A program made the position numbers and the translations under genes. From Pseudobacteriovorax antillogorgiicola (GTDB lineage Bacteria > Bdellovibrionota_B > Oligoflexia > Oligoflexales > RGVZ01), in contig CAMBEK010000003.1 in assembly GCA_945865565.1 (NCBI GenBank), positions 186,001 through 250,000 on the forward strand: a stretch of 64,000 nucleotides of DNA. The letters run 5' to 3'. Below, in pieces: positions 15,976 through 48,401 of this stretch. The notes under the pieces are model-generated. The model searched no databases. It saw only the letters and a program-made list of their open reading frames with translations, and was not told the DNA's origin. How positions within the stretch are numbered: position 1 is the stretch's first letter; the number at the start of each line of letters is the position of its first letter.

Positions 15976-18327
15976 CTATTTCTTCTGAATCTGGGTCAGC
16001 CTTTCGGTCGCCAAATTCGCGTAGAACAAATTGTTGCCATCCGCTTTTGCTTTTTCCAGCGCGGCCACTGCCTCATCTTTTCGCCCAGCCCGATAAAGAA
16101 GGAGGCCCGCCTTGTAGAGTGTTTCAGCGCGGCCTTCCCAGTTTTCACTCTCTGAAGCAACGAGCCCAAACGTTCGACCCGCCTCGAGGTATTCGTTGTC
16201 TTTCCGGTATTCCTCGGCCAACAAGAGGAGTTGATCCATCCATGCCTTACGCGCTTCTTTGTCGTCTCCGAATTGCGCTGGTTTCATGTCACGAAGAAGA
16301 CCAAGGGCCTCACGACGTTCCTTGTCCATTCCAAGCGCTGCAAAACGAGCGGCGAGATTTGAGATTAATTTTGCCGATGCTGCAGATGGAGAAAATTCGT
16401 TCTTCAGGTCTGCCCCAGATCCACCAGCTGATGTCGACTGCCTGGCTGCATGGTGATCCTTCCAGGAAGACAAGATCAATTTCGGAGGAGTCCTCAATTT
16501 AGCCCCTGAGGTCAGCGATGCCTCAATGGGCTGGCGAAATGCAGCATATAATTGTTCCCGTTCTGATGGCTTCAGGCCGGCAAGGGTTGCCGCCATACCA
16601 CGATCTGCGTCGACCATTGCCCTTTGGAAAGGCGATATTTTTGTTTGACCAGCCTTCATCCGGGTCAAAAGATCGGTGGCCTCTGAGGCCGTCTGGGACA
16701 GCCAGAATTGCGCCTTGAAACGGTCGATCCCAGAGCCTTCCGCAGCAGCCGTTTGATAGAACGCCACAGCAGGTTGGGGCTGTCCAATACTGCGGTAGGA
16801 TTCTCCCAGTGCCCATGCAGTTTTCGGATTTTTTCGCACGGACTGCAAAGGTTTTGGGAGCAACTCAAAGGTTTGAACGACATCAACGTGACGGCCATCC
16901 ATTGAGAGCTTTTGAATCATCTGATCGATTCTCGTCCGCAAGCGGACAAGCAGCTCACTCCTCATCGGGTCAAACGCCGCGATCTTGTAATCGCGAAAGT
17001 AATTCGCTGCAAAATTTCCGGTATCCGCATTCCATTCGCGGCTTGGATCAAGCCTTGCGGCGAGCAGCATTGAGGCTGTTAGAAATCTGGTGCGCGGGTG
17101 AGTGAGTTTGGAGAAAGTGGATTCAAGCTCCCTGGCATCCATTTCATCCAACGCCGGAATGGCGATGGCAGTTTTAGCGTCTTCGCCCTGAACCGGCGAA
17201 TTCGACGGCAATCCACGCCAATAGGCGGTGCGCAAAACCTTCCCCGCCCGATAGTCGGGTGTGGTTGAGGCAACGTCGAGAGCCGGCAAGGCCGGAGACA
17301 CCTTGGTAAGGATGTCGGATTCGCCTGCAGCCATCGCCTCAATGGCCTGCACGTCGATTAATCGGAGCAAGGCCAGACTGTGCTCGGGTGTGCCGGGAAA
17401 TCTTTTGGCGATGGCGTCGTAGTAGCCACCAGCAAGAGAGAGATTTCCCTGGCCTAAATGAATTTCCGCCATCCTCCACAGGTTTCCTGCGTCACGCTCA
17501 ATGGCGAGGGGATCGTGAAACAATAATTGCTGATAGACGAACATGGCACGCAATTCCTGCCCGTCGGCATACAGTGCCGCCGCAAGATCAGAAAGTCCCC
17601 GAGTCGAGGCCATGCTGCGCTGGCAAAGGTCTAACGGGATTTCTTCCGCATATTTTGGTTTTGCGGGGAGATTGTCGAGACGGTAGACGGGATCCGCCAA
17701 TCCGCCCCACGAAGGGGCCAAGCCTGGCTTGGCCTGCTTCAACTGGGCACAGAGGTCTGCCGCGTTTTCGAATTTCTTTGGTGCCGTCTGGAATATCCTT
17801 CGCTGCGCAGCGTGATCCGTTGTTGCTGGAGTCGCAGGGAGATTGGCAATTCCGGTTGGTCCAGCAGGTGTCCTTGCCTGAGCCACGGGCGCCGTCACCG
17901 TCGTTGGAAGTGCCTCTGCCGATCGGCCCGGTGTATAACCACGCCTAAAAAGCTCAATGACGATTCGAAAAGGTTCATCGAAGTCATTTACGGTGGCCAC
18001 GATGTCGCGCGACTTCAACTTGATCAGTACCTCGACGCCATCTGGTCCGCGGTCTTTCACAAGGACGCGTCGGACCATTTCTTCGTCGTAATGTTCCAGG
18101 GCCTGCAGTTCCGTCGAAGATGTCTTCAGAATCTCGATCTTCACAAGATTTTCGATTGCATCGTATTTGGCTGAATAGGGACGGGACTGGGGAAATGGCA
18201 GCACAATTTCAGAATATTCCGCGGCAATCCCCGACTCGCCTGCAAAGGCCAGGCAAATGACGCCAGTCGCAATGGCGACCGATGCCCGAATACTTCTCAA
18301 TGTCCATGGCCAATGGAAGGACATCAT
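15976..18327 (-). CDS. Secreted TPR-repeat protein heading the flagellar operon (PflA-like?)
   Basis: A 783-residue exported protein. A signal peptide (hydrophobic stretch VAIATGVICLAFAGESGIAA) is followed by a beta-rich domain of about 100 residues resembling AMIN-type folds (VEVLIKLKSRDI, FRIVIELF), a Pro/Ala-rich linker, and many helical TPR-like repeats to the C-terminus (AGRTFGLVASESENWEGRAE, LYRAGRKDEAVAALEKAKAD). It is the first gene after a sigma-54 promoter and precedes the flagellar activator by about 50 bases. Campylobacter PflA, a periplasmic TPR motor protein, has nearly the same length (788); a comparable motor-scaffold role is inferred. Start ATG 18327 with GAGAGG upstream; an in-frame GTG lies at 18339. 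Confidence 0.75.
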   Translation of the reverse strand: MMSFHWPWTLRSIRASVAIATGVICLAFAGESGIAAEYSEIVLPFPQSRPYSAKYDAIENLVKIEILKTSSTELQALEHYDEEMVRRVLVKDRGPDGVEVLIKLKSRDIVATVNDFDEPFRIVIELFRRGYTPGRSAEALPTTVTAPVAQARTPAGPTGIANLPATPATTDHAAQRRIFQTAPKKFENAADLCAQLKQAKPGLAPSWGGLADPVYRLDNLPAKPKYAEEIPLDLCQRSMASTRGLSDLAAALYADGQELRAMFVYQQLLFHDPLAIERDAGNLWRMAEIHLGQGNLSLAGGYYDAIAKRFPGTPEHSLALLRLIDVQAIEAMAAGESDILTKVSPALPALDVASTTPDYRAGKVLRTAYWRGLPSNSPVQGEDAKTAIAIPALDEMDARELESTFSKLTHPRTRFLTASMLLAARLDPSREWNADTGNFAANYFRDYKIAAFDPMRSELLVRLRTRIDQMIQKLSMDGRHVDVVQTFELLPKPLQSVRKNPKTAWALGESYRSIGQPQPAVAFYQTAAAEGSGIDRFKAQFWLSQTASEATDLLTRMKAGQTKISPFQRAMVDADRGMAATLAGLKPSEREQLYAAFRQPIEASLTSGAKLRTPPKLILSSWKDHHAARQSTSAGGSGADLKNEFSPSAASAKLISNLAARFAALGMDKERREALGLLRDMKPAQFGDDKEARKAWMDQLLLLAEEYRKDNEYLEAGRTFGLVASESENWEGRAETLYKAGLLLYRAGRKDEAVAALEKAKADGNNLFYANLATERLTQIQKK

Positions 18328-18380
18328 GGGACCTCTCACGTTTCACGCAGTTTTGATTTTTAGAATTCAGGAGAAGACTG

Positions 18381-18396
18381 AGCAAGGGGCGTGCCA
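18381..18396 (-). promoter_or_regulatory. Sigma-54 promoter of the flagellar operon
   Basis: Read on the minus strand the sequence is TGGCACGCCCCTTGCT, which matches the sigma-54 consensus TGGCACG-N4-TTGCW at every defined position, with GG and GC ten bases apart. Transcription would start near 18371, about 44 bases before the ATG at 18327. It drives the TPR protein, the sigma-54 activator and flgB through motE. Having an activator with a GAFTGA loop in the operon supports the call. Confidence 0.9.
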
Positions 18397-38040: not shown

Positions 38041-39320
38041 ACGCCATGAAAAGCGCAGCAGCGTTTTTATCGTCCTGCGCACTGGAACTCCTATTTCAAA
38101 TGATTTCGTTGCTGGCGCTTGTCCCCGGATTTTCCATGGGGAGCCTGGCGCGGCAAGTCCGCGGCCGCGTAAAAGGAAGCGACTCGATCGAATCCATACA
38201 GCCCTCCAACCCATCGTGCCGGGGCGACCTGCTTTTCTTCTGCAGTTCGGCCGGAGAATTTGAACAGGCGCGTCCAATCATCGACCGCCTTTCTGGACGC
38301 CTCGACCTTGATCCCATCATTTTGTTCCTTTCGCGGTCAGGACTTGAGTACATCCGTGCTCGCGGGGAAAATGTTCGAGCCGCCCTTGCGCCTCCAGACA
38401 CCTTGTGGCGATGGCGACGGTTTGATTCGTGCCACCGCATTCGCGGGGCAATCGTGATTCGCCATGAATGGTGGCCCTCATTTCTGAATGTTTTTGGCCG
38501 GAACCGGCCCCTTCTATTGATCGACGCCGGCCGTCCAGCAGGGTCTCCGGAATCAAAAATCAGAAACCTTGGTCGCGGATACCTCGCGCGGCACTTCACC
38601 AAAATCTGCACCGTTGATGAGAGCAGTGCTGAATTTTTTTCAAAAAACTTTCACATTGATCCAACCCGGATTCTTTCCACCGGTGATACAAAGCACGACC
38701 GGGTCATGGACCGGGCACGGACGACAAGGATCAGTGACTCACTGCGGGCCAAAGTCCAGAAATTTGCTGGCGGGCGGAAAATACTTGTCGCAGGCAGCAT
38801 CTATGCTGCCGACATTGAACTTTTAACTTCTGCATGGCGGACCAACCCGGACCTGCAGAGGTCATGGGTTATTGTTGCCGTACCCCATAACATCAATGAC
38901 AAGACCGCCAGAAACCTGCAGGCCATAATCGACCAGGCGGATTGTGATTTTTTGCTTCTCTGTCAGATAGGGATTTTAGCTGAATTATATTCCTTGGCTG
39001 ATGTTGCCTGGGTCGGCGGGGCGTGCCATCACAAGGTGCATAATGTCTTGGAGCCTGCTTCCCACGGCACACGGTTGGCATGCGGTGTGAAGTTTCGTAA
39101 CAGTCCCGAGGCTGTCCAAATGGTCGGGGAGGGGATCTTGCAGGCGATCGCGACTCCGGATCAACTCGCCAAATGGCTGATCGCGGCAAAAACTGAAACC
39201 ACCAGCCCGGTTCAGGCGATTGCCTCGCCAAGCCACTCATTTGTCGTGGCACGAACTGGGGCTGCAGAAAAAATTTGTGTGCTGCTTGAGCGGTGCCTCG
39301 CTGCACCGGAAGGACCGTGA
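38037..39320 (+). CDS. waaA: Kdo transferase-like glycosyltransferase (WaaA family)
   Basis: A 427-residue membrane-anchored enzyme. It shows the WaaA order of motifs: an N-terminal hydrophobic anchor (about 10-32), FCSSAGEFEQARPII (counterpart of the catalytic SxGE region), VIRHEWWPSFL (like E-WP), ILSTGDTKHDR (like GNxKFD), LVAGSIYAADIELL (like GSTHxGEE) and HNVLEPASHG (like HNxLEPA). It would transfer Kdo to lipid A. The sequence deviates at several of these motifs, so the sugar specificity may differ. Start GTG 38037 overlapping the heptosyltransferase stop, or ATG 38046. Both LPS enzymes share the operon with rng. Confidence 0.85.
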   Translation: MNAMKSAAAFLSSCALELLFQMISLLALVPGFSMGSLARQVRGRVKGSDSIESIQPSNPSCRGDLLFFCSSAGEFEQARPIIDRLSGRLDLDPIILFLSRSGLEYIRARGENVRAALAPPDTLWRWRRFDSCHRIRGAIVIRHEWWPSFLNVFGRNRPLLLIDAGRPAGSPESKIRNLGRGYLARHFTKICTVDESSAEFFSKNFHIDPTRILSTGDTKHDRVMDRARTTRISDSLRAKVQKFAGGRKILVAGSIYAADIELLTSAWRTNPDLQRSWVIVAVPHNINDKTARNLQAIIDQADCDFLLLCQIGILAELYSLADVAWVGGACHHKVHNVLEPASHGTRLACGVKFRNSPEAVQMVGEGILQAIATPDQLAKWLIAAKTETTSPVQAIASPSHSFVVARTGAAEKICVLLERCLAAPEGP

Positions 39321-40849
39321 TGCTCGAAAAACAGTTGATCATCAATATCAATGAATCTGAAACTCGGATGGCGCTGCTTGAACGCGGGGATCTTGCCGAG
39401 TTGTATATTGAACGGCACCACGAACGTGCCCTGTTTGGAAACATCTATAAGGCGCGCGTAAACCGGGTGCTACCCGGAATGCAGGCGGCTTTTATTGATA
39501 TTGGTGCCGAACGCTCCGCCTTCCTTTATGCGGGTGATGTCATCAAAGGCGATGTCACCAAAGGCCTTGAGGATGAGGCCGACGATCAGGGCGACTGGCA
39601 GGAAGAGGATTTCGGCAAGCCAACGCGGATGAATCGTGGCCCCATCGAAAAAATTCTGAAGGAGGGGCAGCAGATCCTCGTTCAAATCAGCAAAGAGCCT
39701 TTGGGCAGCAAGGGTGCCCGCGCAACCATGCACATGTCATTGGCGGGGCGGTTTCTGGTGCTTGTGCCTGGCACGTCAAAAATCGGAATCTCAAAGCGAA
39801 TATCAGACGAGGGCAAGCGCCTGCACCTGAAGAATCTCGTGAAATCAATAAAGCCAAAAGGAGTTGGCGTCATTGTGCGAACAGCGGCGGAAGATGCCGA
39901 CGAGAGGAGTCTGGCCAAGGATCTCCGCTATCTCATCCGCAACTGGCAAAGGATTCAACTCAAAGCGCCTCGCGAATCTGCGCCGACCCTTTTATATCAA
40001 GATCTGGACCTGGTCCGGAGGGTGACACGAGATCTCTTTTCTGGCGAAGTCAGCAAGATCGTGATCGATAATCAAAACGCATTCGATGACCTTCAGCGCT
40101 TCCTAAACGCAACCACCCCTGGCGCGACTAGAAAACTCGAGCTCCACACCGCTCAAATTCCGATCTTTGATCTTTATGGAATTGAGATGGACATTGGGCG
40201 GGCATTGGGACGCAAAATTGATTTACCCTCGGGCGGACACCTGGTCATCGACCAAACAGAGGCCCTGACCTCTTTCGATGTAAACACAGGGAAATACGTC
40301 GGCCGCAACAACGTGCGCGATACGGTTGTCAGGACCAACCTCGAGGCCATCACACAAATCGTCCGCCAACTCCGCGTCCGAAATATCGGCGGAATCATTG
40401 TCCTCGATTTTATTGACATGGAACGGGAAACAGACCGGGAAAATGTTTTTCAATCCCTTCAAGAAGAACTCAAAAAAGACAAGGCACGCAGCACCGTGTT
40501 AAGGATCAGCGAATTCGGGCTGGTCCAGATGACCCGAAAAAGGACGGCCGAATCCCTTGAACGGCAACTGACGGAGCCATGCCCATGCTGTGATGGAAGG
40601 GGCCGGATTCGCAGCACGCAGACCGAGGCCTACGACCTGATCCGTGAGGTCATGCGACTCTCGCTGCAAATAGGAAAAAAGTCACTGCGCTTGCGCCTAC
40701 GGGATGACATCCGTGACTGGCTTCTTCACGAAGAAAAAAACCTGTTCGACAGGATATTGAAAGAATCCGGGGTGACCGTCATCTTTGAGAATGCGCCAGT
40801 AAGTCGTTCAGACCTGGGCCAGGCTGGGTTTGAAGTCTTTCCAGGCTGA
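39320..40849 (+). CDS. rng: Ribonuclease G (RNase E/G family)
   Basis: A 509-residue endoribonuclease. An S1-type RNA-binding domain (about 35-120: GNIYKARVNRVLPGMQAAFI) precedes the 5'-sensor and DNase I-like catalytic domains. The catalytic metal-binding aspartates are in LTSFDVNTGKYVG and GGIIVLDFIDM. A zinc-link CPCCDGRGRI follows. There is no long C-terminal scaffold, which favours RNase G over RNase E. ATG 39320 overlaps the preceding stop as TGATG and has GGAAGGA upstream. Its stop is two bases from the stop of the convergent cysteine-rich lipoprotein gene. Confidence 0.95.
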   Translation: MLEKQLIININESETRMALLERGDLAELYIERHHERALFGNIYKARVNRVLPGMQAAFIDIGAERSAFLYAGDVIKGDVTKGLEDEADDQGDWQEEDFGKPTRMNRGPIEKILKEGQQILVQISKEPLGSKGARATMHMSLAGRFLVLVPGTSKIGISKRISDEGKRLHLKNLVKSIKPKGVGVIVRTAAEDADERSLAKDLRYLIRNWQRIQLKAPRESAPTLLYQDLDLVRRVTRDLFSGEVSKIVIDNQNAFDDLQRFLNATTPGATRKLELHTAQIPIFDLYGIEMDIGRALGRKIDLPSGGHLVIDQTEALTSFDVNTGKYVGRNNVRDTVVRTNLEAITQIVRQLRVRNIGGIIVLDFIDMERETDRENVFQSLQEELKKDKARSTVLRISEFGLVQMTRKRTAESLERQLTEPCPCCDGRGRIRSTQTEAYDLIREVMRLSLQIGKKSLRLRLRDDIRDWLLHEEKNLFDRILKESGVTVIFENAPVSRSDLGQAGFEVFPG

Positions 40850-40850
40850 C

Positions 40851-41708
40851 CTACTTTTTCCGGCAAGATACCCGACTGGAAACTTCTGCCGGCGACAAGC
40901 CCGCAATGCAAGTGCGCAAATCAAAATTAAATCTGGTTAGGCACTTTCCTGACCCCTCAGCAGAAATTTTTACGTTTGCCGCCTGCCCCGGCGCGGAATC
41001 AACCTCACAAATGGTCGCCTCAACGTCGGCCTTGTCACAAGACGGCTGAACGGGGGGACAATCCCCCGAATATCGGGGCTGCTTTTCGCAGGTAACATTC
41101 CCGAGAAGTTCGGGGTTCAAGTTTCGAGAACACGCCACCTTTGAAAGCTCGTATCGCGCAACGCAACTATTTGCACCCCAAGCCACCAGGGGCGTATCGA
41201 CTGCTGTCAGATTTTCGTTGTGACTGGTTGACATGCAGCGGGTTGGATCAAACAATGTGATGCATATTCCGGGGACCACGGGGCATTTGCGGTCGCTTGC
41301 GTCGGGAGCGCATTTGATCGCATCCATGGTCTTGATGTCCCAGCCGCGTTTGCAGGCTTCGGCCAATACCGCCTTCTTTGCCTCACAAACACTGCCGGCG
41401 TATGCAAAGGAATTGTGCCCGGGCGTCAAGACGACCCCGGAAAATTCACGCAACTCACAAAAGGTCTGTTTTGGTTCCTGCGGGCACGATTTTTCAAGCT
41501 CCTTGCATATCTCAGCTCGCGCTGTCGCGGAGTCCGCACCACCCTTTGAGCCCGACGCGTCCGGACCGACCGTTTCTTGGACGCCAGAACCACCTGCCGC
41601 CCCAGAGCCAGATTGCTGCGACCTGACAGTCCTCTTGCCCAAACAGGACGAAAGCGCGATTGTGCACACCACGATCATCACTTTTTTAAAAATACTATTT
41701 TTGTTCAT
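40851..41708 (-). CDS. Lipoprotein of three six-cysteine modules
   Basis: A 285-residue protein with lipobox ALSSC (Cys22), a Gly/Ser-rich linker (about 30-62) and three tandem modules of about 66 residues. Cysteines are at 68, 75, 84, 108, 119, 133; 142, 149, 158, 182, 193, 207; and 217, 224, 234, 256, 267, 282. The spacing C-x6-C-x8-C-x23-C-x10-C-x13-C is identical in modules 1 and 2 and nearly so in module 3. Eighteen cysteines suggest nine disulfides in a secreted, lipid-anchored protein. I recognise no family. The ATG lies 14 bases inside the end of flgD, with GGAG upstream, so it is coupled to flgD. Confidence 0.8.
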   Translation of the reverse strand: MNKNSIFKKVMIVVCTIALSSCLGKRTVRSQQSGSGAAGGSGVQETVGPDASGSKGGADSATARAEICKELEKSCPQEPKQTFCELREFSGVVLTPGHNSFAYAGSVCEAKKAVLAEACKRGWDIKTMDAIKCAPDASDRKCPVVPGICITLFDPTRCMSTSHNENLTAVDTPLVAWGANSCVARYELSKVACSRNLNPELLGNVTCEKQPRYSGDCPPVQPSCDKADVEATICEVDSAPGQAANVKISAEGSGKCLTRFNFDLRTCIAGLSPAEVSSRVSCRKK

Positions 41709-42708
41709 CTACGTTCTCCGCCGGCTGGTCCGCAGAATCCATAATCACAGGAATGGCAGCCGCACCAGCCACAAGTGGTTCATTTACTTCCAGCGGCTCA
41801 CTCATATTTGCTTGTTCATTGATTTTTGGCTGTTCATTCATTTTTGGTTTTTCATCAATCATTCGTACAGCCACAACATCATTTGCCGAAATTTTTCCGG
41901 CTGCAGTCATAAAGGCGCCATTTGGATCCTTAAGATCCACTCCTGTGACCTTGATCCTCGTCTGAACTGGCAAAGGAACTGCTTGCCCTTCATCTGCCGT
42001 CGCCGTGATTGAGAATGTGTAGGCACCATCTTGCAATGCCTTCCCGTCGGTCCCAACACCGCTCCACTGCAAGTCCTGCTCCCCATCGCGCAATTGGCCA
42101 AGTTCTTCCGTCGCCACAATGTTGCCATTACCGTCGCGAACTTCGAGGGTAGCACCAGACACAGGCCGGTCGATGTTGAAACTGACCTGCCCTGCATTGC
42201 CTTGTGAAACCAGGGCCCGACCACCCTCAACGGTGACCTCCCGCCCAACGTAATCGAGCATACCAAAATTGCGTCCGTTGCTTTGCCCCTTGAGCATTTC
42301 TGTAAGGGTCTTGTTGACGTTGAGCATTTGCTCCAGCCCGTTGAATTGCGCCAGCTGTGCTGCCATTTGAGCACTATCGTCCGGCTTCAATGGATCCTGA
42401 TTCTGCAGCTGCGCAATGAACAGCTTGAGAAAGTCGTCTTTGTCGAGTTCAGTTTTAGGTCCACGCTGCGTGCTATTGCGACCGTTGATGGCGCGAAAAA
42501 ATTCTTCATCCGTCTTGGCCGCTGAAAGATCACCGTCTTTATTTGACGCCCGTTCCTTGGCAACATCCAGATTTGAACTCATCAGGATATTTTTGAACGA
42601 TGCATCGCCTTGAGTCGATGAAACCTTTGACGTGCCAGCCCCATCAAGGATATTTGGCGCGCTTTTGCCTTGATATGGACTGATCTTTTCTTGCATCGAC
42701 GTACGCAT
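41695..42708 (-). CDS. flgD: Flagellar hook-capping protein FlgD
   Basis: FlgD is the scaffold that caps the growing hook. The 337 residues include the conserved N-terminal signature DDFLKLFIAQLQNQDPLKP then AQMAAQLAQFNGLEQM, and C-terminal Tudor/fibronectin-like domains (GREVTVEGG, DLQWSGVGTDGKALQDGAYTFSI). A repetitive Asn/Glu/Pro tail (MNEQPKINEQANMSEPLEVN) is unusual. ATG 42708 is preceded by GGAGG; an in-frame TTG lies at 42723. It follows fliK by 50 bases. flgE, often the next gene, is replaced by the cysteine-rich lipoprotein gene. Confidence 0.95.
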   Translation of the reverse strand: MRTSMQEKISPYQGKSAPNILDGAGTSKVSSTQGDASFKNILMSSNLDVAKERASNKDGDLSAAKTDEEFFRAINGRNSTQRGPKTELDKDDFLKLFIAQLQNQDPLKPDDSAQMAAQLAQFNGLEQMLNVNKTLTEMLKGQSNGRNFGMLDYVGREVTVEGGRALVSQGNAGQVSFNIDRPVSGATLEVRDGNGNIVATEELGQLRDGEQDLQWSGVGTDGKALQDGAYTFSITATADEGQAVPLPVQTRIKVTGVDLKDPNGAFMTAAGKISANDVVAVRMIDEKPKMNEQPKINEQANMSEPLEVNEPLVAGAAAIPVIMDSADQPAENVDEQK

Positions 42709-42758
42709 GATGTTGTCCTCCAAATCGGCGATTCAAAAATCTATTTTTCAACCACTCG

Positions 42759-44828
42759 TCAGGCGAGAACCTTGATCCGCCCGTCGCCACCTAAACTGCG
42801 ATCGGAAAGATCGACAATACGAAAGGAACGCAGAGCCTGACGCCCCATCTGTTCATTCAAAGCCGCAATCGACTGCCCCGGTGAACGTCCAGACGAAGTG
42901 GCTCCAGCAAGGGACGAATCTTGGTGACGGTCGTTTTCGAAACCCTGGGACCGGCCCTGATTTGCCAGGTTTCCTTCCGCACCAGTCCATGCCCTCGTGG
43001 TAAATTCACGCAGGTTCAGATTTTGCTCACTGAGTGCGGATTTCAACTGGGTCAACTCGCGGGCAACGAGTTCCCGAAGTTCCCCGGACCCGGCCATGAC
43101 CCGAACATCGACTTGGCCATCCTTGTCAATGCGCACGGCGACTTCAAGATTTCCAGCCTCTGGGCTCGATAGGTCAAGGCGCATGGCGCCAATATTGCTC
43201 ACTGATGTGTGGCGGATGGCATCTTGAATCTTGCGGAAAGCATCGCTTGCATGCCTGGCCTTGATCTCACTGCGCTCAGCCTTTTCTTGGGCGGGCGCGT
43301 CAGCCGTATCAGCGGCCTTAATTCCATCTTGTGCGATTCCCCGTTCAATATTTGAAAGGAGATTTGACTCAGGCAATGCCTTTTCTGTTTCATCGGCAGA
43401 ACGCGCGACATCGCCCGACTCGTTCTTGAATTCCTGACCGGAAGGCTGGTTTTCTCCCTGCGAATTCTTTCGATCCATCAAGCCCTCTCGATCCATCAAG
43501 TCTGGGGCCCGCATCGATTCAAAAGTAACGGCATCCCCAAACCCTGCGGCGACATCATTATCGAACGCAGCGCTCGCGCCGAACTCTTCCCATGCAGCGC
43601 GACCGGTCCCGATGACTTTGACGCTGTCACCAAACTCCGCCTGTAGGCTTGCCTTGAATTCAGCCAGATCCGTTGAAGAAGAAATCACTGCCTGTTCTGG
43701 CTGCCCTGAATTGACTACCGGCGTTTGCGATTCGGTCATGACCCCCAGCATGGCCTGATCGCCTCCCGACATGCCTGTCAGCATGGCCTGATCGCCTCCC
43801 GACATGCCTGTCAGCATGTCGAGAACTCCCCCCGCCGAGGACCCTGCATCTAAACCATTTAATCCAATGGATTGAAAATTTACGTCGATCGACTTGCCCA
43901 TATTGTGCGGGCCCCAACTGCTGGCTGAAACAAGTGCCTGCGCCATGATAGCCTGCGTTTCCAGACTATTGGTGGACTTGAATGCCAGAAGGTCAGCACC
44001 TGTTTCTTCAACCTCGGGCCCGGTCATCTTGTCCATAATGCCAGTTTGCTTGCCGGATGATTTTGCCATGGCGAGCGACTGCTGCATGTACCCGGCGACG
44101 CCCTCCAGTGCGATGGCTCCTTTCAACCGGTTAAGATCCGATTCGACCCTCTTTGGATCAGCCCCCAACGCACCAAGAACCTGGCCACGCTGCAAGGGAC
44201 CGGAAGAGTCGACACCCAAGGCCAATGCCTGCGTGATCAATTCTGGTCCAAATCCGAGCTCGCGCATGACATTGCTTGGTTTGACGTCCTCATTCATGTA
44301 ATCGCCCAAATCTTCTTCAATCAAGGCGTCCATGATGAACCGACTGGAGGCCATCAATTGCGGCAACTCCTCGATGGCCCCAGGGGATTGGGTCCCTTCC
44401 AGAAAATGCAGCGCGGCTGGCTTGGCATCAGGATTCTGCTTAACCAGTTGGCGAAGGATCTGATTCGCCATGGATGCCTGGCCCTTACCTCTTGCTTCTC
44501 GTTCGGCCTTTGGCTCCTTGGACACCTTTGGTTCTTTGGTTTCCTTGGGCTCCCTTGAATCCTTTGCCTCTTTTGAATCTTTTGCCTCTACTGCACTGCC
44601 GGTTCCAGATGCCTCTGCAGTGCCATCGTCTGCGACTTGTGATTCAAACTCCTTGCGTGTCTTGTCCTGCGCGGGACGCTGAGTCGGCGCACTGGACGAG
44701 ACGGAAGACCCTGCCGGCGAAACGCCTGTTGACGAAGTAGGCGAAGTTGGCGAAGAGGAAGACGAAGACGCCAAGGCAGAACTCAAGGCTGCAGAGATTG
44801 ATGGGCTTTGCGAATTTTTTGAAATCAT
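42759..44828 (-). CDS. fliK: Flagellar hook-length control protein FliK
   Basis: A 689-residue protein with the FliK build. A Ser/Pro/Thr-rich N-terminus is followed by a Lys/Glu-rich repeat stretch (KDSREPKETKEPKVSKEPK), a long middle region with a duplicated 11-residue unit MLTGMSGGDQA, and a C-terminal hook-length domain (MRLDLSSPEAGNLEVAVRID, LTQLKSALSEQNLNLREF). Its length is longer than enteric FliK (405), which could matter for hook length because FliK acts as a ruler. ATG overlaps the stop of the hydrolase gene (ATGA). Confidence 0.9.
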   Translation of the reverse strand: MISKNSQSPSISAALSSALASSSSSSPTSPTSSTGVSPAGSSVSSSAPTQRPAQDKTRKEFESQVADDGTAEASGTGSAVEAKDSKEAKDSREPKETKEPKVSKEPKAEREARGKGQASMANQILRQLVKQNPDAKPAALHFLEGTQSPGAIEELPQLMASSRFIMDALIEEDLGDYMNEDVKPSNVMRELGFGPELITQALALGVDSSGPLQRGQVLGALGADPKRVESDLNRLKGAIALEGVAGYMQQSLAMAKSSGKQTGIMDKMTGPEVEETGADLLAFKSTNSLETQAIMAQALVSASSWGPHNMGKSIDVNFQSIGLNGLDAGSSAGGVLDMLTGMSGGDQAMLTGMSGGDQAMLGVMTESQTPVVNSGQPEQAVISSSTDLAEFKASLQAEFGDSVKVIGTGRAAWEEFGASAAFDNDVAAGFGDAVTFESMRAPDLMDREGLMDRKNSQGENQPSGQEFKNESGDVARSADETEKALPESNLLSNIERGIAQDGIKAADTADAPAQEKAERSEIKARHASDAFRKIQDAIRHTSVSNIGAMRLDLSSPEAGNLEVAVRIDKDGQVDVRVMAGSGELRELVARELTQLKSALSEQNLNLREFTTRAWTGAEGNLANQGRSQGFENDRHQDSSLAGATSSGRSPGQSIAALNEQMGRQALRSFRIVDLSDRSLGGDGRIKVLA
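43749..43814. repeat. Perfect 33-base tandem duplication inside fliK
   Basis: Two identical 33-base units (43749-43781 and 43782-43814), each encoding MLTGMSGGDQA on the minus strand. The lack of any mismatch indicates a recent, in-frame slippage or duplication in the middle region of FliK. Copy number could vary between strains and change ruler length slightly. Confidence 0.95.
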
Positions 44829-45637
44829 TTTTTCGCCTCCGATGCATTGATGAACTTCCTGATCGCTGACATCGCTTCTTCCGGGCGATCGATGGTCAAC
44901 TCGTGACCTCCACCCTCAATTCCAAGCAATCTTGCACCGGGAATCAAACTGGCAATTAGCTCGCTGTTGGCCGTGGGGACAAACTGATCGCCCTTGCCAT
45001 AAAGGACCAGCGCCGGAACTTGGATACCGCGCAAATCATCACGAACTCTGAATCTCGCGGCTGCCAGAATTTGTTTCACGATCACAGCCGGAGCCACTTT
45101 CGATGCCTGGTCAATCTTGAGCCACTCTTTTGCAACTTTTTTTTGCAGGTCCGCTGGCGATTGAGGTCCCAACAGGAGGCGCGCAAGGTCGTCATAAATG
45201 GCGGGACCAAAAACAACCGCACGCGCTAATAAAAGCCAGGCAGCACGGCTCAAACGCGCATGACCACTGCCGGCAATGCTGGAATTCACGATCACGAGAG
45301 AAGAAGTCCTGGCGCGATGTTTGAGCCCCATTGCCATTGCCACCATGCCACCTAAAGATACGCCCATGATGTGAGACCTCTGGCTCCCCACTTCGTCGAG
45401 CACCTGCACAACGTCGTCGGCCAGATCATAGATCGTGTCCGTAACGTTCATGCCTCGTTTGGTTTGACCGATCTCCCGGGCATCGATGGTGATAGCCCGA
45501 AAGTGCCCGGCCATTTTATGTTCAAAGCCAAGCCAATGTTTCGTGTTACGCCCAAGTCCGCGCAACATCACAAGATCTGGGCCTTCGCCTAGAACTTCAT
45601 AATGAATGCCGGACTTGCTTTTGCGTGATCGGCCCAC
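44825..45637 (-). CDS. Alpha/beta-hydrolase fold protein
   Basis: A 270-residue hydrolase with the nucleophile elbow GVSLGG, acid residue in YGKGDQFVP and catalytic His in GGGHELTID; the oxyanion region reads LRGLGRNTKHW rather than HGxG. The substrate cannot be told from sequence; esterases, haloperoxidase-like and 3-oxoadipate enol-lactonase-like enzymes share this layout. The start is GTG at 45637 with GGGAG six bases upstream. The stop overlaps the fliK start (ATGA), so a hydrolase is unexpectedly the first gene of a fliK-flgD operon. Confidence 0.88.
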   Translation of the reverse strand: MGRSRKSKSGIHYEVLGEGPDLVMLRGLGRNTKHWLGFEHKMAGHFRAITIDAREIGQTKRGMNVTDTIYDLADDVVQVLDEVGSQRSHIMGVSLGGMVAMAMGLKHRARTSSLVIVNSSIAGSGHARLSRAAWLLLARAVVFGPAIYDDLARLLLGPQSPADLQKKVAKEWLKIDQASKVAPAVIVKQILAAARFRVRDDLRGIQVPALVLYGKGDQFVPTANSELIASLIPGARLLGIEGGGHELTIDRPEEAMSAIRKFINASEAKK

Positions 45638-45836: not shown

Positions 45837-48401
45837 CTATTTCTGGTCTTGCAGTTTCTGGACTACAGAATCGAGTTTGCGGAACTTTTCCTGCATGGCC
45901 TCCAACTTTTTCTCAAGGGCCTGGACTTTGGTGTCGCCGGGCTTGCGAAGATGGTCAAGGATCCGTTCAACTTCCACTCGTTCTTGCAGCGGTAACCCCG
46001 GGCGCAGCCCATCCAGTGCCCGCGCGGCCTCTGCCACACCGCCTGATCCGATTCCACGGTAGGCACCCTGCCGGATGGTCATCAGCTCATTGCGTAAAAG
46101 AGTCACAAGTTCTGACACGATTTGGGTTTGCATTGGCTTTTTTGCATATTGATAAAGTCCGGCTATGGCTTGGGCCGCGGCCGGCATGGCGCGATAAGAC
46201 ACGACCCCAGACTTCATCCGGTTGAGGCAAACATGCGCTGCATCTTCTGAACGAAAGGCAGCAAGCCCCCTGAACACCGATGATTCAACGAACCCGTGGC
46301 GGTCAAGGCAGGAAAATTCACGTTCGATTGCTGCCATCAGAGCCGGCTGACGTTGCGCAGCAAGGCATTCGATCAAGGCCCCACGACAAAGTGGTGGCAA
46401 AGCCTCTTGCAGGCGCGCCTGGACCACTTCCACCATCCGATCATCGGTAAACTCGCGTGCTGCATTGGCCAGAGCATGAAGGACGCGAGAGTCTGTTTCG
46501 CGTTTCATCCAAGTCAGAAGGTTTGCCAAACTGGATTCGGTATTTGATTCGCCGAAGAAGGCCGCCACCTCACAACGGACCCCCCAATGGGGCTCTTGCA
46601 GCATCGCGGATCCAACCGCCTGAATGTTGGCGTTGCGCCCCGACTTCATCAGTTCATTGGCGGCCAGGATTCGGCCAATCACATCACTGGCACCCGTGAG
46701 CTGGGCCTTCAGCAAATCGTCACCCGGGCTGAATTCAAGTTTATGCAAAACCCTGCATTTGGGATCGAAACGAACTTGATCGGGCCGCTGCGCCATTGGC
46801 ACAACAAAATCATGACGGTCACGCTCAATTAAGACGGCTTGCGTGTGGGCCACGCCTGACATTGTCCAGCCGATGTCAGTGTGCAAATCGAAGGCCATAC
46901 CCGCCTTTTTGTTTTCTCTGTCTACGGCACACTGCTTTTGCTCAACCGAAAAAGTCCCGGTTTTTGCGGTTTCGTCCCACGCAAAAGAAACTTTCAAATC
47001 AGGATAACCGTCGCCAAGGATCCACTGATCAAAAAACTTCACGAGGGAGCGCCCCGAGTGTTGTTCGAGTTTCCGTCTGAAATCATCAGTTTCGACAACG
47101 CGGCCCCGGAAGGTTTTTACGTAGTCTTGCACTCCAGCCCAAAAAACATCGTCGCCAAGCATTCCACGCAACATGTGCAGGCGGCACGCGCCACCCGGAT
47201 ACAAATGGCGGTCGTACATTTGCCATGAAGACTTGAAACGCCGCGTGACGATTGGGCGCCGGTATTTTTCATCAGCCTCTGAAAAATAGGCCTGGGCATT
47301 GCGATGGTAATCAACCAGGGCATCGTCCGTCCCGTGACGGTCCTCGAGCCAGCACTGCTCCATATATGTTGCCCAGGATTCCTTGAGCCAGGCGTGGGCA
47401 AAATCGCGGCAAACCACACTGTCACCAAAAAAACTGTGGGCCATCTCATGAATGTTTACTTGATCAATGAACCACGACCACTCGCGTGCATGAGCTTCAT
47501 CGGCGACAAAAATGTCACTCCAGCTGACCAGCGAAATATTCTCCATTGCGCCACCAAAGGCGGGCAGGGCGAATTGGTAGTATTTGGGAAAAGGAAAAGG
47601 GGAATCAAGTTTGGTGGTCAGCCAGCGCAGCATGTCTTTGGTCCGACCAAAGGACCTTTTGAGGTCGGCGACCTCGTGGGGAGCGGTCGCAAAACTCGCC
47701 ACAGGAATTCCTTCAAATTCACCATCATCGGCACAGATAAAATCGCCAATGGCAAAGCAGATCAAATAACTGGGACAAGGCTGTTCCAGACGCCAGTGGG
47801 CGGTTTTGGTGCTGTCGCCCCGGTCCTTCTCGCTGATGAGGGATCCGTTGGCCAAAATCGTAAAGCGTTTTTCTGCCGTGAGATGAAAATCAAGCGTGGT
47901 GCGAACGTGAGGCAAATCAACACAAGGCAACCAGTAGCGTGCGCGTTCGGTTTCGTGATCCGTCGCGGCATAGGTTGGCTTGATGTGGGAAGGATCGTTT
48001 CCTTGGTTCGGGGCAGGATTCATAAAGAATAAACCGGTCACCGGCTTTTCAATCCGGTACACAACTTCAATTCTGCGCTTTTCACCTTGGGAAAGAGGCT
48101 TGGCCCAGCGGATGTTGATTTTCTCACCATCGTAGCGCCACGACAGCTCGTGGCTGTCCGGATCTTTGACCACCACGTCCAAAAAAGCCACGGCGTCCAA
48201 AATTAAACGGTCGGCACCAGCCGCGCGGGCGATGGCCGTTAAAGTCACGACACCCGAAGCGCCGTGACCGGTGACGTCAACCTTGAGGTCGATGTCCAGA
48301 TGAACGGGTTCAATCTGCTGGTCGGGTGGATACTGGTCTTCGGCACCTGGGCCGCTAAAGGACTCGATTGGGTTTAAATGATGAAGCCGGTTCAAGCACA
48401 T
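45837..48401 (-). CDS. M1-family aminopeptidase
   Basis: An 854-residue zinc metallopeptidase. The substrate-binding motif is GGAMENISL, and the zinc site is HEMAH with the third ligand Glu 18 residues on (KESWATYMEQ), exact M1 spacing. The C-terminal third is helical with HEAT-like repeats, ending in a short coiled coil (LEKKLEAMQEKFRKLDSVVQ). No signal peptide, so cytoplasmic. It trims N-terminal residues from peptides, useful for a proteolytic or predatory lifestyle (inference). ATG 48401 has GGAG seven bases upstream. Confidence 0.93.
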   Translation of the reverse strand: MCLNRLHHLNPIESFSGPGAEDQYPPDQQIEPVHLDIDLKVDVTGHGASGVVTLTAIARAAGADRLILDAVAFLDVVVKDPDSHELSWRYDGEKINIRWAKPLSQGEKRRIEVVYRIEKPVTGLFFMNPAPNQGNDPSHIKPTYAATDHETERARYWLPCVDLPHVRTTLDFHLTAEKRFTILANGSLISEKDRGDSTKTAHWRLEQPCPSYLICFAIGDFICADDGEFEGIPVASFATAPHEVADLKRSFGRTKDMLRWLTTKLDSPFPFPKYYQFALPAFGGAMENISLVSWSDIFVADEAHAREWSWFIDQVNIHEMAHSFFGDSVVCRDFAHAWLKESWATYMEQCWLEDRHGTDDALVDYHRNAQAYFSEADEKYRRPIVTRRFKSSWQMYDRHLYPGGACRLHMLRGMLGDDVFWAGVQDYVKTFRGRVVETDDFRRKLEQHSGRSLVKFFDQWILGDGYPDLKVSFAWDETAKTGTFSVEQKQCAVDRENKKAGMAFDLHTDIGWTMSGVAHTQAVLIERDRHDFVVPMAQRPDQVRFDPKCRVLHKLEFSPGDDLLKAQLTGASDVIGRILAANELMKSGRNANIQAVGSAMLQEPHWGVRCEVAAFFGESNTESSLANLLTWMKRETDSRVLHALANAAREFTDDRMVEVVQARLQEALPPLCRGALIECLAAQRQPALMAAIEREFSCLDRHGFVESSVFRGLAAFRSEDAAHVCLNRMKSGVVSYRAMPAAAQAIAGLYQYAKKPMQTQIVSELVTLLRNELMTIRQGAYRGIGSGGVAEAARALDGLRPGLPLQERVEVERILDHLRKPGDTKVQALEKKLEAMQEKFRKLDSVVQKLQDQK

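Follow-up and report, generated by a model that had tools for sequence, protein, structure and literature searches.

The genome studied here belongs to the Oligoflexales (those of its relatives that have a name are MAGs of Oligoflexales, Oligoflexus and Pseudobacteriovorax), and the window, that is, the whole stretch of 64,000 nucleotides that was analysed, carries a gene for a cysteine-rich lipoprotein whose start lies inside flgD. This locus raises the question of whether the lipoprotein is a component of the flagellum or an envelope protein encoded beside flagellar genes. The features concerned are given below in window coordinates, with their evidence in parentheses.

39293-40849, rng, convergent, on the other side of the lipoprotein gene
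40741..40753, minus strand, terminator-like hairpin with a T-run, inside the rng 3' end (pattern match only)
40851..41708, minus strand, lipoprotein gene, 285 aa, 20 Cys (homologues, dN/dS)
40854..41066, minus strand, module 3, aa 215-285, cysteine spacing 6-9-21-10-14 (cysteine positions, profile)
41055..41291, minus strand, module 2, aa 140-218, spacing 6-8-23-10-13 (cysteine positions, profile)
41280..41513, minus strand, module 1, aa 66-143, spacing 6-8-23-10-13, with limits that take in the first cysteine of module 2 (cysteine positions, profile)
41514..41642, minus strand, Gly/Ser/Ala low-complexity linker, about aa 23-65 (some 40 residues), predicted to be disordered (AlphaFold)
41640..41708, minus strand, signal peptide, aa 1-22, containing the lipobox LSSC, with Cys22 as the lipidated residue (sequence)
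41695..42723, minus strand, flgD (hook cap), whose 3'-terminal 14 bases are shared with the start of the lipoprotein gene (Pfam FlgD 6.9e-23, FlgD_ig 1.4e-17)
42759..44828, minus strand, fliK (hook-length control; Pfam Flg_hook 1.3e-10)
44825..45637, minus strand, alpha/beta hydrolase, upstream of fliK in the run and overlapping its start (Pfam Abhydrolase_1 5.1e-20; synteny)
45837..48401, minus strand, M1-family aminopeptidase, first of the run (Pfam Peptidase_M1 8.2e-37; synteny)

The open reading frame at 40851-41708, proposed in the first-pass annotation, is a real gene, to which our analysis adds the minus strand and the lipobox LSSC. Comparison with the nearest relative gave dN/dS values of 0.14 (NG86) and 0.19 (YN00), similar to those of fliK and kdtA, and the gene is under purifying selection. 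The signal peptide, MNKNSIFKKVMIVVCTIALSSC, displays the positively charged N-terminus, the hydrophobic stretch and the lipobox ([LVI][ASTVI][GAS]C) that define a substrate of signal peptidase II. Among the 20 cysteines, C15 belongs to the signal peptide, C22 to the lipobox and the other 18 to the three modules. A lipobox-like cysteine is present in all 15 of the flgD-adjacent proteins, and the residue that follows it is L, M, T, K, R, A or S (Leu in the window) and Asp in 0/15. Since Asp is absent from this position, sorting to the outer membrane is expected under the +2 rule of E. coli, which may differ in the Oligoflexales. The linker behind the lipidated cysteine has a pLDDT below 50 in the AlphaFold model (residues 19-63). 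The terminator-like hairpin lies some 100 bases beyond the stop codon of the lipoprotein gene, and such matches are no more numerous than in shuffled sequences.

The three modules span C68-C133, C142-C207 and C217-C282, and the reported arrangement of 18 cysteines, exact in two modules and nearly so in the third, was confirmed. The modules had also been called identical, which holds for the spacing of modules 1 and 2 but not for the sequence, as module 2 shares 17% identity with module 1 and 25% with module 3. A single profile nevertheless matches all of them (2.7e-25, 1.5e-22 and 2.3e-14). When 18 cysteines were placed at random 200,000 times, an exact repeat of the five gaps never arose, and the spacing is kept in homologues only 20-30% identical that have one, two or three modules, which excludes chance as its origin.

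Searches of Pfam, NCBIfam and PDB sequences with the whole protein, the separate modules and the relatives returned only chance-level rows, and nothing in Pfam, the FlgP/FlgO domain models included, matched the lipoprotein or its relatives at E<=10. The module profile matched nothing in six genomes of other phyla, a set that held no positive control, and tblastn against plasmid records was likewise without a match. No description of the module or the lipoprotein was found in the open literature. These results are in agreement with the initial statements that no family could be recognised and that a disulfide-rich module near the hook operon was undescribed; the profile search proposed as a check hit no known domain. 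Judged by these searches, the module is a small domain not described before.

To define its distribution, we searched 58 genomes of the class (a search of the phylum gave the same 58) and gathered the relative loci with flgD as anchor. The module is present in 19 of the 58, comprising 17 clear homologues of the lipoprotein, with one to three modules, and two single-module proteins (G037 and G053), both encoded away from flgD. Among 369 genomes of Bdellovibrionota, a single module was detected in only four, with a spacing of about 7-8-21-10-15 or close to it and no detectable flgD beside any of the four genes. The single-module secreted proteins of Bdellovibrionota and Oligoflexia (L147, L148 and L173-L176) match the module profile at E 1e-4 to 1e-10 and, like each module of the lipoprotein, have six cysteines, here spaced at about 7-8-21-10-15, but they differ from the lipoprotein in having one module and in not being adjacent to flgD. 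In one Bdellovibrionota protein of 283 aa (L176:5318-6169), which is secreted, a module of the same family is C-terminal and fused to another domain. As far as searched, the multi-module, lipidated and flgD-linked form is limited to the Oligoflexales.

The AlphaFold model of the lipoprotein, built with 15 sequences, has a mean pLDDT of 71, with values mostly of 77-92 in modules 1 and 2 and of 64-86 in module 3. Each module is predicted to consist of a strand (C3), a second strand, a helix (from C4 to C5) and a strand (C6), and the model of a single module (pLDDT 74) agrees with the full one. Comparison of the full and single-module models with solved structures by Foldseek and VIA-align gave no convincing fold match; the rows obtained were eL20/LX ribosomal proteins, dsRBDs, cytidine deaminases and other unrelated proteins, with Z of 5 or below. 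In L027/L051, both C3 and C6 of module 1 are gone (replaced by Ala and Tyr), and this joint loss suggests that C3 and C6 form a disulfide. Structure prediction, which had been recommended for the pairing of the cysteines, yielded a predicted fold for the module; the C3-C6 pair is suggested by the co-loss. C6 alone is missing in L036/L059, where the lipoprotein gene (L036:8723-9543, the same as L059:6078-6898) is split in two frames and part of module 2 is missing between them.

Of 56 genomes, 53 have VKOR, that of the window among them, and 4 have DsbB. The presence of VKOR in nearly all genomes indicates that an oxidising route exists, and the nearly empty search for DsbB is explained if VKOR takes over its place. 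Most of the VKOR-domain proteins are at least about 400 aa long, and they stand in place of DsbB nearly class-wide (for example, G000:C5:53243-53635).

Analysis of the gene neighbourhood showed that, among the 17 carrier genomes, 15 have the lipoprotein gene directly 3' of flgD, at a distance of -20 to +41 bases at which the two genes overlap or almost touch, so that the flgD association is not peculiar to the window; the overlap of 14 bases reported for the window was also correct. The two exceptions are G013 (L035), where the gene is away from flgD and yet precedes the gene of a metallopeptidase-like protein, and G035 (L036), in which the two are separated by a MATE transporter gene. The order flgD...rng-kdtA-heptosyltransferase is kept both in genomes that have the lipoprotein gene and in those that lack it, and adjacency alone is therefore weak evidence of a shared function. 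On the flgD tree, the lipoprotein is distributed over three family-level groups, with 3 changes against 12 in shuffles, a pattern compatible with an early gain followed by losses or with repeated gain. flgD itself was detected in 47 of the 58 genomes. The module occurs in 19 of these 47, if the two unlinked single-module proteins are counted, and in none of the 11 that have no flgD (Fisher p of about 0.01, kinship being ignored), and 30 flgD-bearing genomes are without the lipoprotein gene family.

Outside the window's genus, a sigma-54-like element (of the TGGCAC-N5-NTGCT type) is located 66-115 bases 5' of fliK in most relatives, with a score of at least 10 in 6/9 and of at least 9 in 8/9; the background at a score of at least 10 is 2.2% per 600 bases. 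This element suggests that the run from fliK to flgD is probably a sigma-54 flagellar operon, with the lipoprotein gene coming next. In the window's genus, no such site was found upstream of the fliK, hydrolase or aminopeptidase genes, nor was there one before the detached lipoprotein gene of G013. The first-pass annotation had held that the protein is made together with the hook-assembly proteins. The adjacency on which this was based is real; co-production and a hook role are less certain, given the missing site in the window's genus, the module proteins away from flgD, the flgD-bearing genomes without the gene and a flgD-rng synteny that does not depend on it. Across the Oligoflexales, a sigma-54-like element occurs about 50-145 bases before fliK whether the lipoprotein gene is present or absent, and most of the members without that gene have it (L028-L031, L033, L036, L149-L152, L154, L159, L160, L162 and L163). 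The window also has a strong sigma-54-like site at 18396 on the minus strand, TGGCACGCCCCTTGCT, which lies upstream of the gene run with a sigma-54 activator, flgB, flgC and fliF, at about 57 bases from the start of the open reading frame 15976-18339 on that strand.

We propose, with a probability of roughly 45%, that the protein is an outer-membrane, disulfide-braced accessory of the flagellum. The gene, its lipobox, the modules, their conservation and the adjacency to flgD are observed, whereas the disulfides, the membrane placement, the co-expression, and the flagellar location and role are inferred. As the last product of the fliK-flgD gene run, the protein would be exported by Sec, lipidated at Cys22 and placed in the outer membrane, where a flexible Gly/Ser/Ala tether would bear between one and three compact modules of the strand-strand-helix-strand type. 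Three disulfides, introduced by a periplasmic system of the VKOR/DsbA type, would lock each module. The tethered stack could then support the flagellum structurally at the level of the hook and outer ring, for instance as a collar or as a spacer lying between the rod or hook and the outer membrane; some families of the Oligoflexales would use it and others would do without it. More tentatively, it may be a lineage-specific flagellar part of the outer membrane in some Oligoflexales, a disulfide-braced collar or stalk with a variable number of modules at the hook/outer-ring, formed by a domain family not described before. The presence of a non-flagellar aminopeptidase and hydrolase in the same gene run speaks against a flagellar role.

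The main rival explanation is that the lipoprotein is a non-flagellar envelope protein, for instance a partner, substrate tether or regulator of a peptidase, and belongs to an ancestral set that happens to follow flgD. This set, composed of the lipoprotein, a small secreted protein, a secreted HExxH metallopeptidase-like lipoprotein and small secreted proteins, is found behind the gene at 10 of the 16 relative loci (L024 and L028-L036) and stays with it both in G013 and in G035. The metallopeptidase-like protein, a secreted lipoprotein and putative metallopeptidase, which has the motifs AHE[LVM]xHA (HExxH-like) and DEGLAH and no significant match in Pfam, is encoded in 12 of the 58 genomes, mostly downstream of flgD and the lipoprotein gene or nearby (L024:9421-11121, L028:6228-8060, L036:6910-8703 and nine other genomes). 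The lipoprotein accompanies it in 10 of the 12, and the single modules found elsewhere are not by flgD. On the other hand, G010 and G026 have the peptidase and no lipoprotein, a homologue of the peptidase is undetectable in the window's genus and in three Oligoflexus-like genomes, all of which have the lipoprotein, and no lipoprotein was found in any genome that lacks flgD. We give this reading a somewhat lower probability than the flagellar one. The absence from genomes without flgD, together with the tight coupling of the start to the flgD stop in three separate families of the flgD tree, makes it improbable that the protein is a passive passenger, that is, a lineage-specific surface lipoprotein with a role unrelated to flgD, coupled for its expression level only and placed there by the order-wide conservation of flgD-rng, even though flgD...rng-kdtA-heptosyltransferase keep their order independently of the gene and share no function.

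Two further explanations concern the cysteines. Kazal domains follow the spacing C-x(n)-C-x7-C-x10-C-x2/3-C-x(n)-C, with disulfides 1-5, 2-4 and 3-6, and the protein could be a Kazal-like or other small serine-protease inhibitor, tethered to the outer membrane and guarding the cell against its own or foreign proteases. The module resembles them in having six cysteines within a small predicted strand-strand-helix-strand unit, and the co-loss of C3 and C6 in one lineage suggests one of the three Kazal pairs. In addition, one relative (L024) has a CxxE[YF]RP-like motif, CTLEFRP, that by our own comparison recalls the Kazal reactive site and served as a lead. The module spacing of 6-8-23-10-13 departs from that of Kazal domains, with 10 residues between C4 and C5 in place of two or three and a longer C3-C4 segment (23); Pfam scans of single modules and the fold lists are without Kazal entries, and a Kazal_2 profile matched nothing in the 58 genomes in a scan that had no positive control. 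The Kazal idea was dropped after the profile comparison with avian ovomucoid third domains, which gave a probability of 0.2% (hhalign, with only three near-identical sequences), and such an inhibitor now seems very improbable. We give the least credence to the view that the cysteine clusters bind metal or store redox equivalents instead of forming structural disulfides. High cysteine content alone favours it, whereas the cysteines occupy a strand, the helix start, the helix end and a strand of a predicted compact unit, a VKOR oxidase is present, C3 and C6 are lost together, and to our knowledge the spacing is unlike that of any metal-binding motif.

Whichever role applies, the module defines a small secreted domain family of the little-studied Oligoflexales and a few Bdellovibrionota that is absent from Pfam and NCBIfam. 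If the flagellar reading is right, this would be a further instance of a bacterial order equipping the motor with an outer-membrane component of its own, and, since module number varies, one could test whether length tracks the geometry of the envelope. If it is not, the lipoprotein would still mark a conserved group of genes for secreted proteins, among them a metallopeptidase-like protein that is unclassified.

Among known proteins, eL20 ribosomal proteins, the best rows of VIA-align, have the strand-strand-helix-strand order in common with the module (Z of about 5 over 57 residues, rmsd 2.8), but they are cytosolic and share no cysteines with it, and this Z lies within the range of chance arrangements. 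A further comparison is with FlgP of Campylobacter and Vibrio and FlgO of Vibrio, which are accessory lipoproteins of the flagellar outer membrane with a domain near the hook or rings. The lipoprotein differs from these in its cysteine-rich repeated modules and in matching no Pfam model. It resembles them in being encoded in a flagellar run (after fliK-flgD in 15/17 genomes, and in 0/11 of those without flgD), in its expected placement in the outer membrane and in a putative periplasmic or surface domain near the hook or rings.
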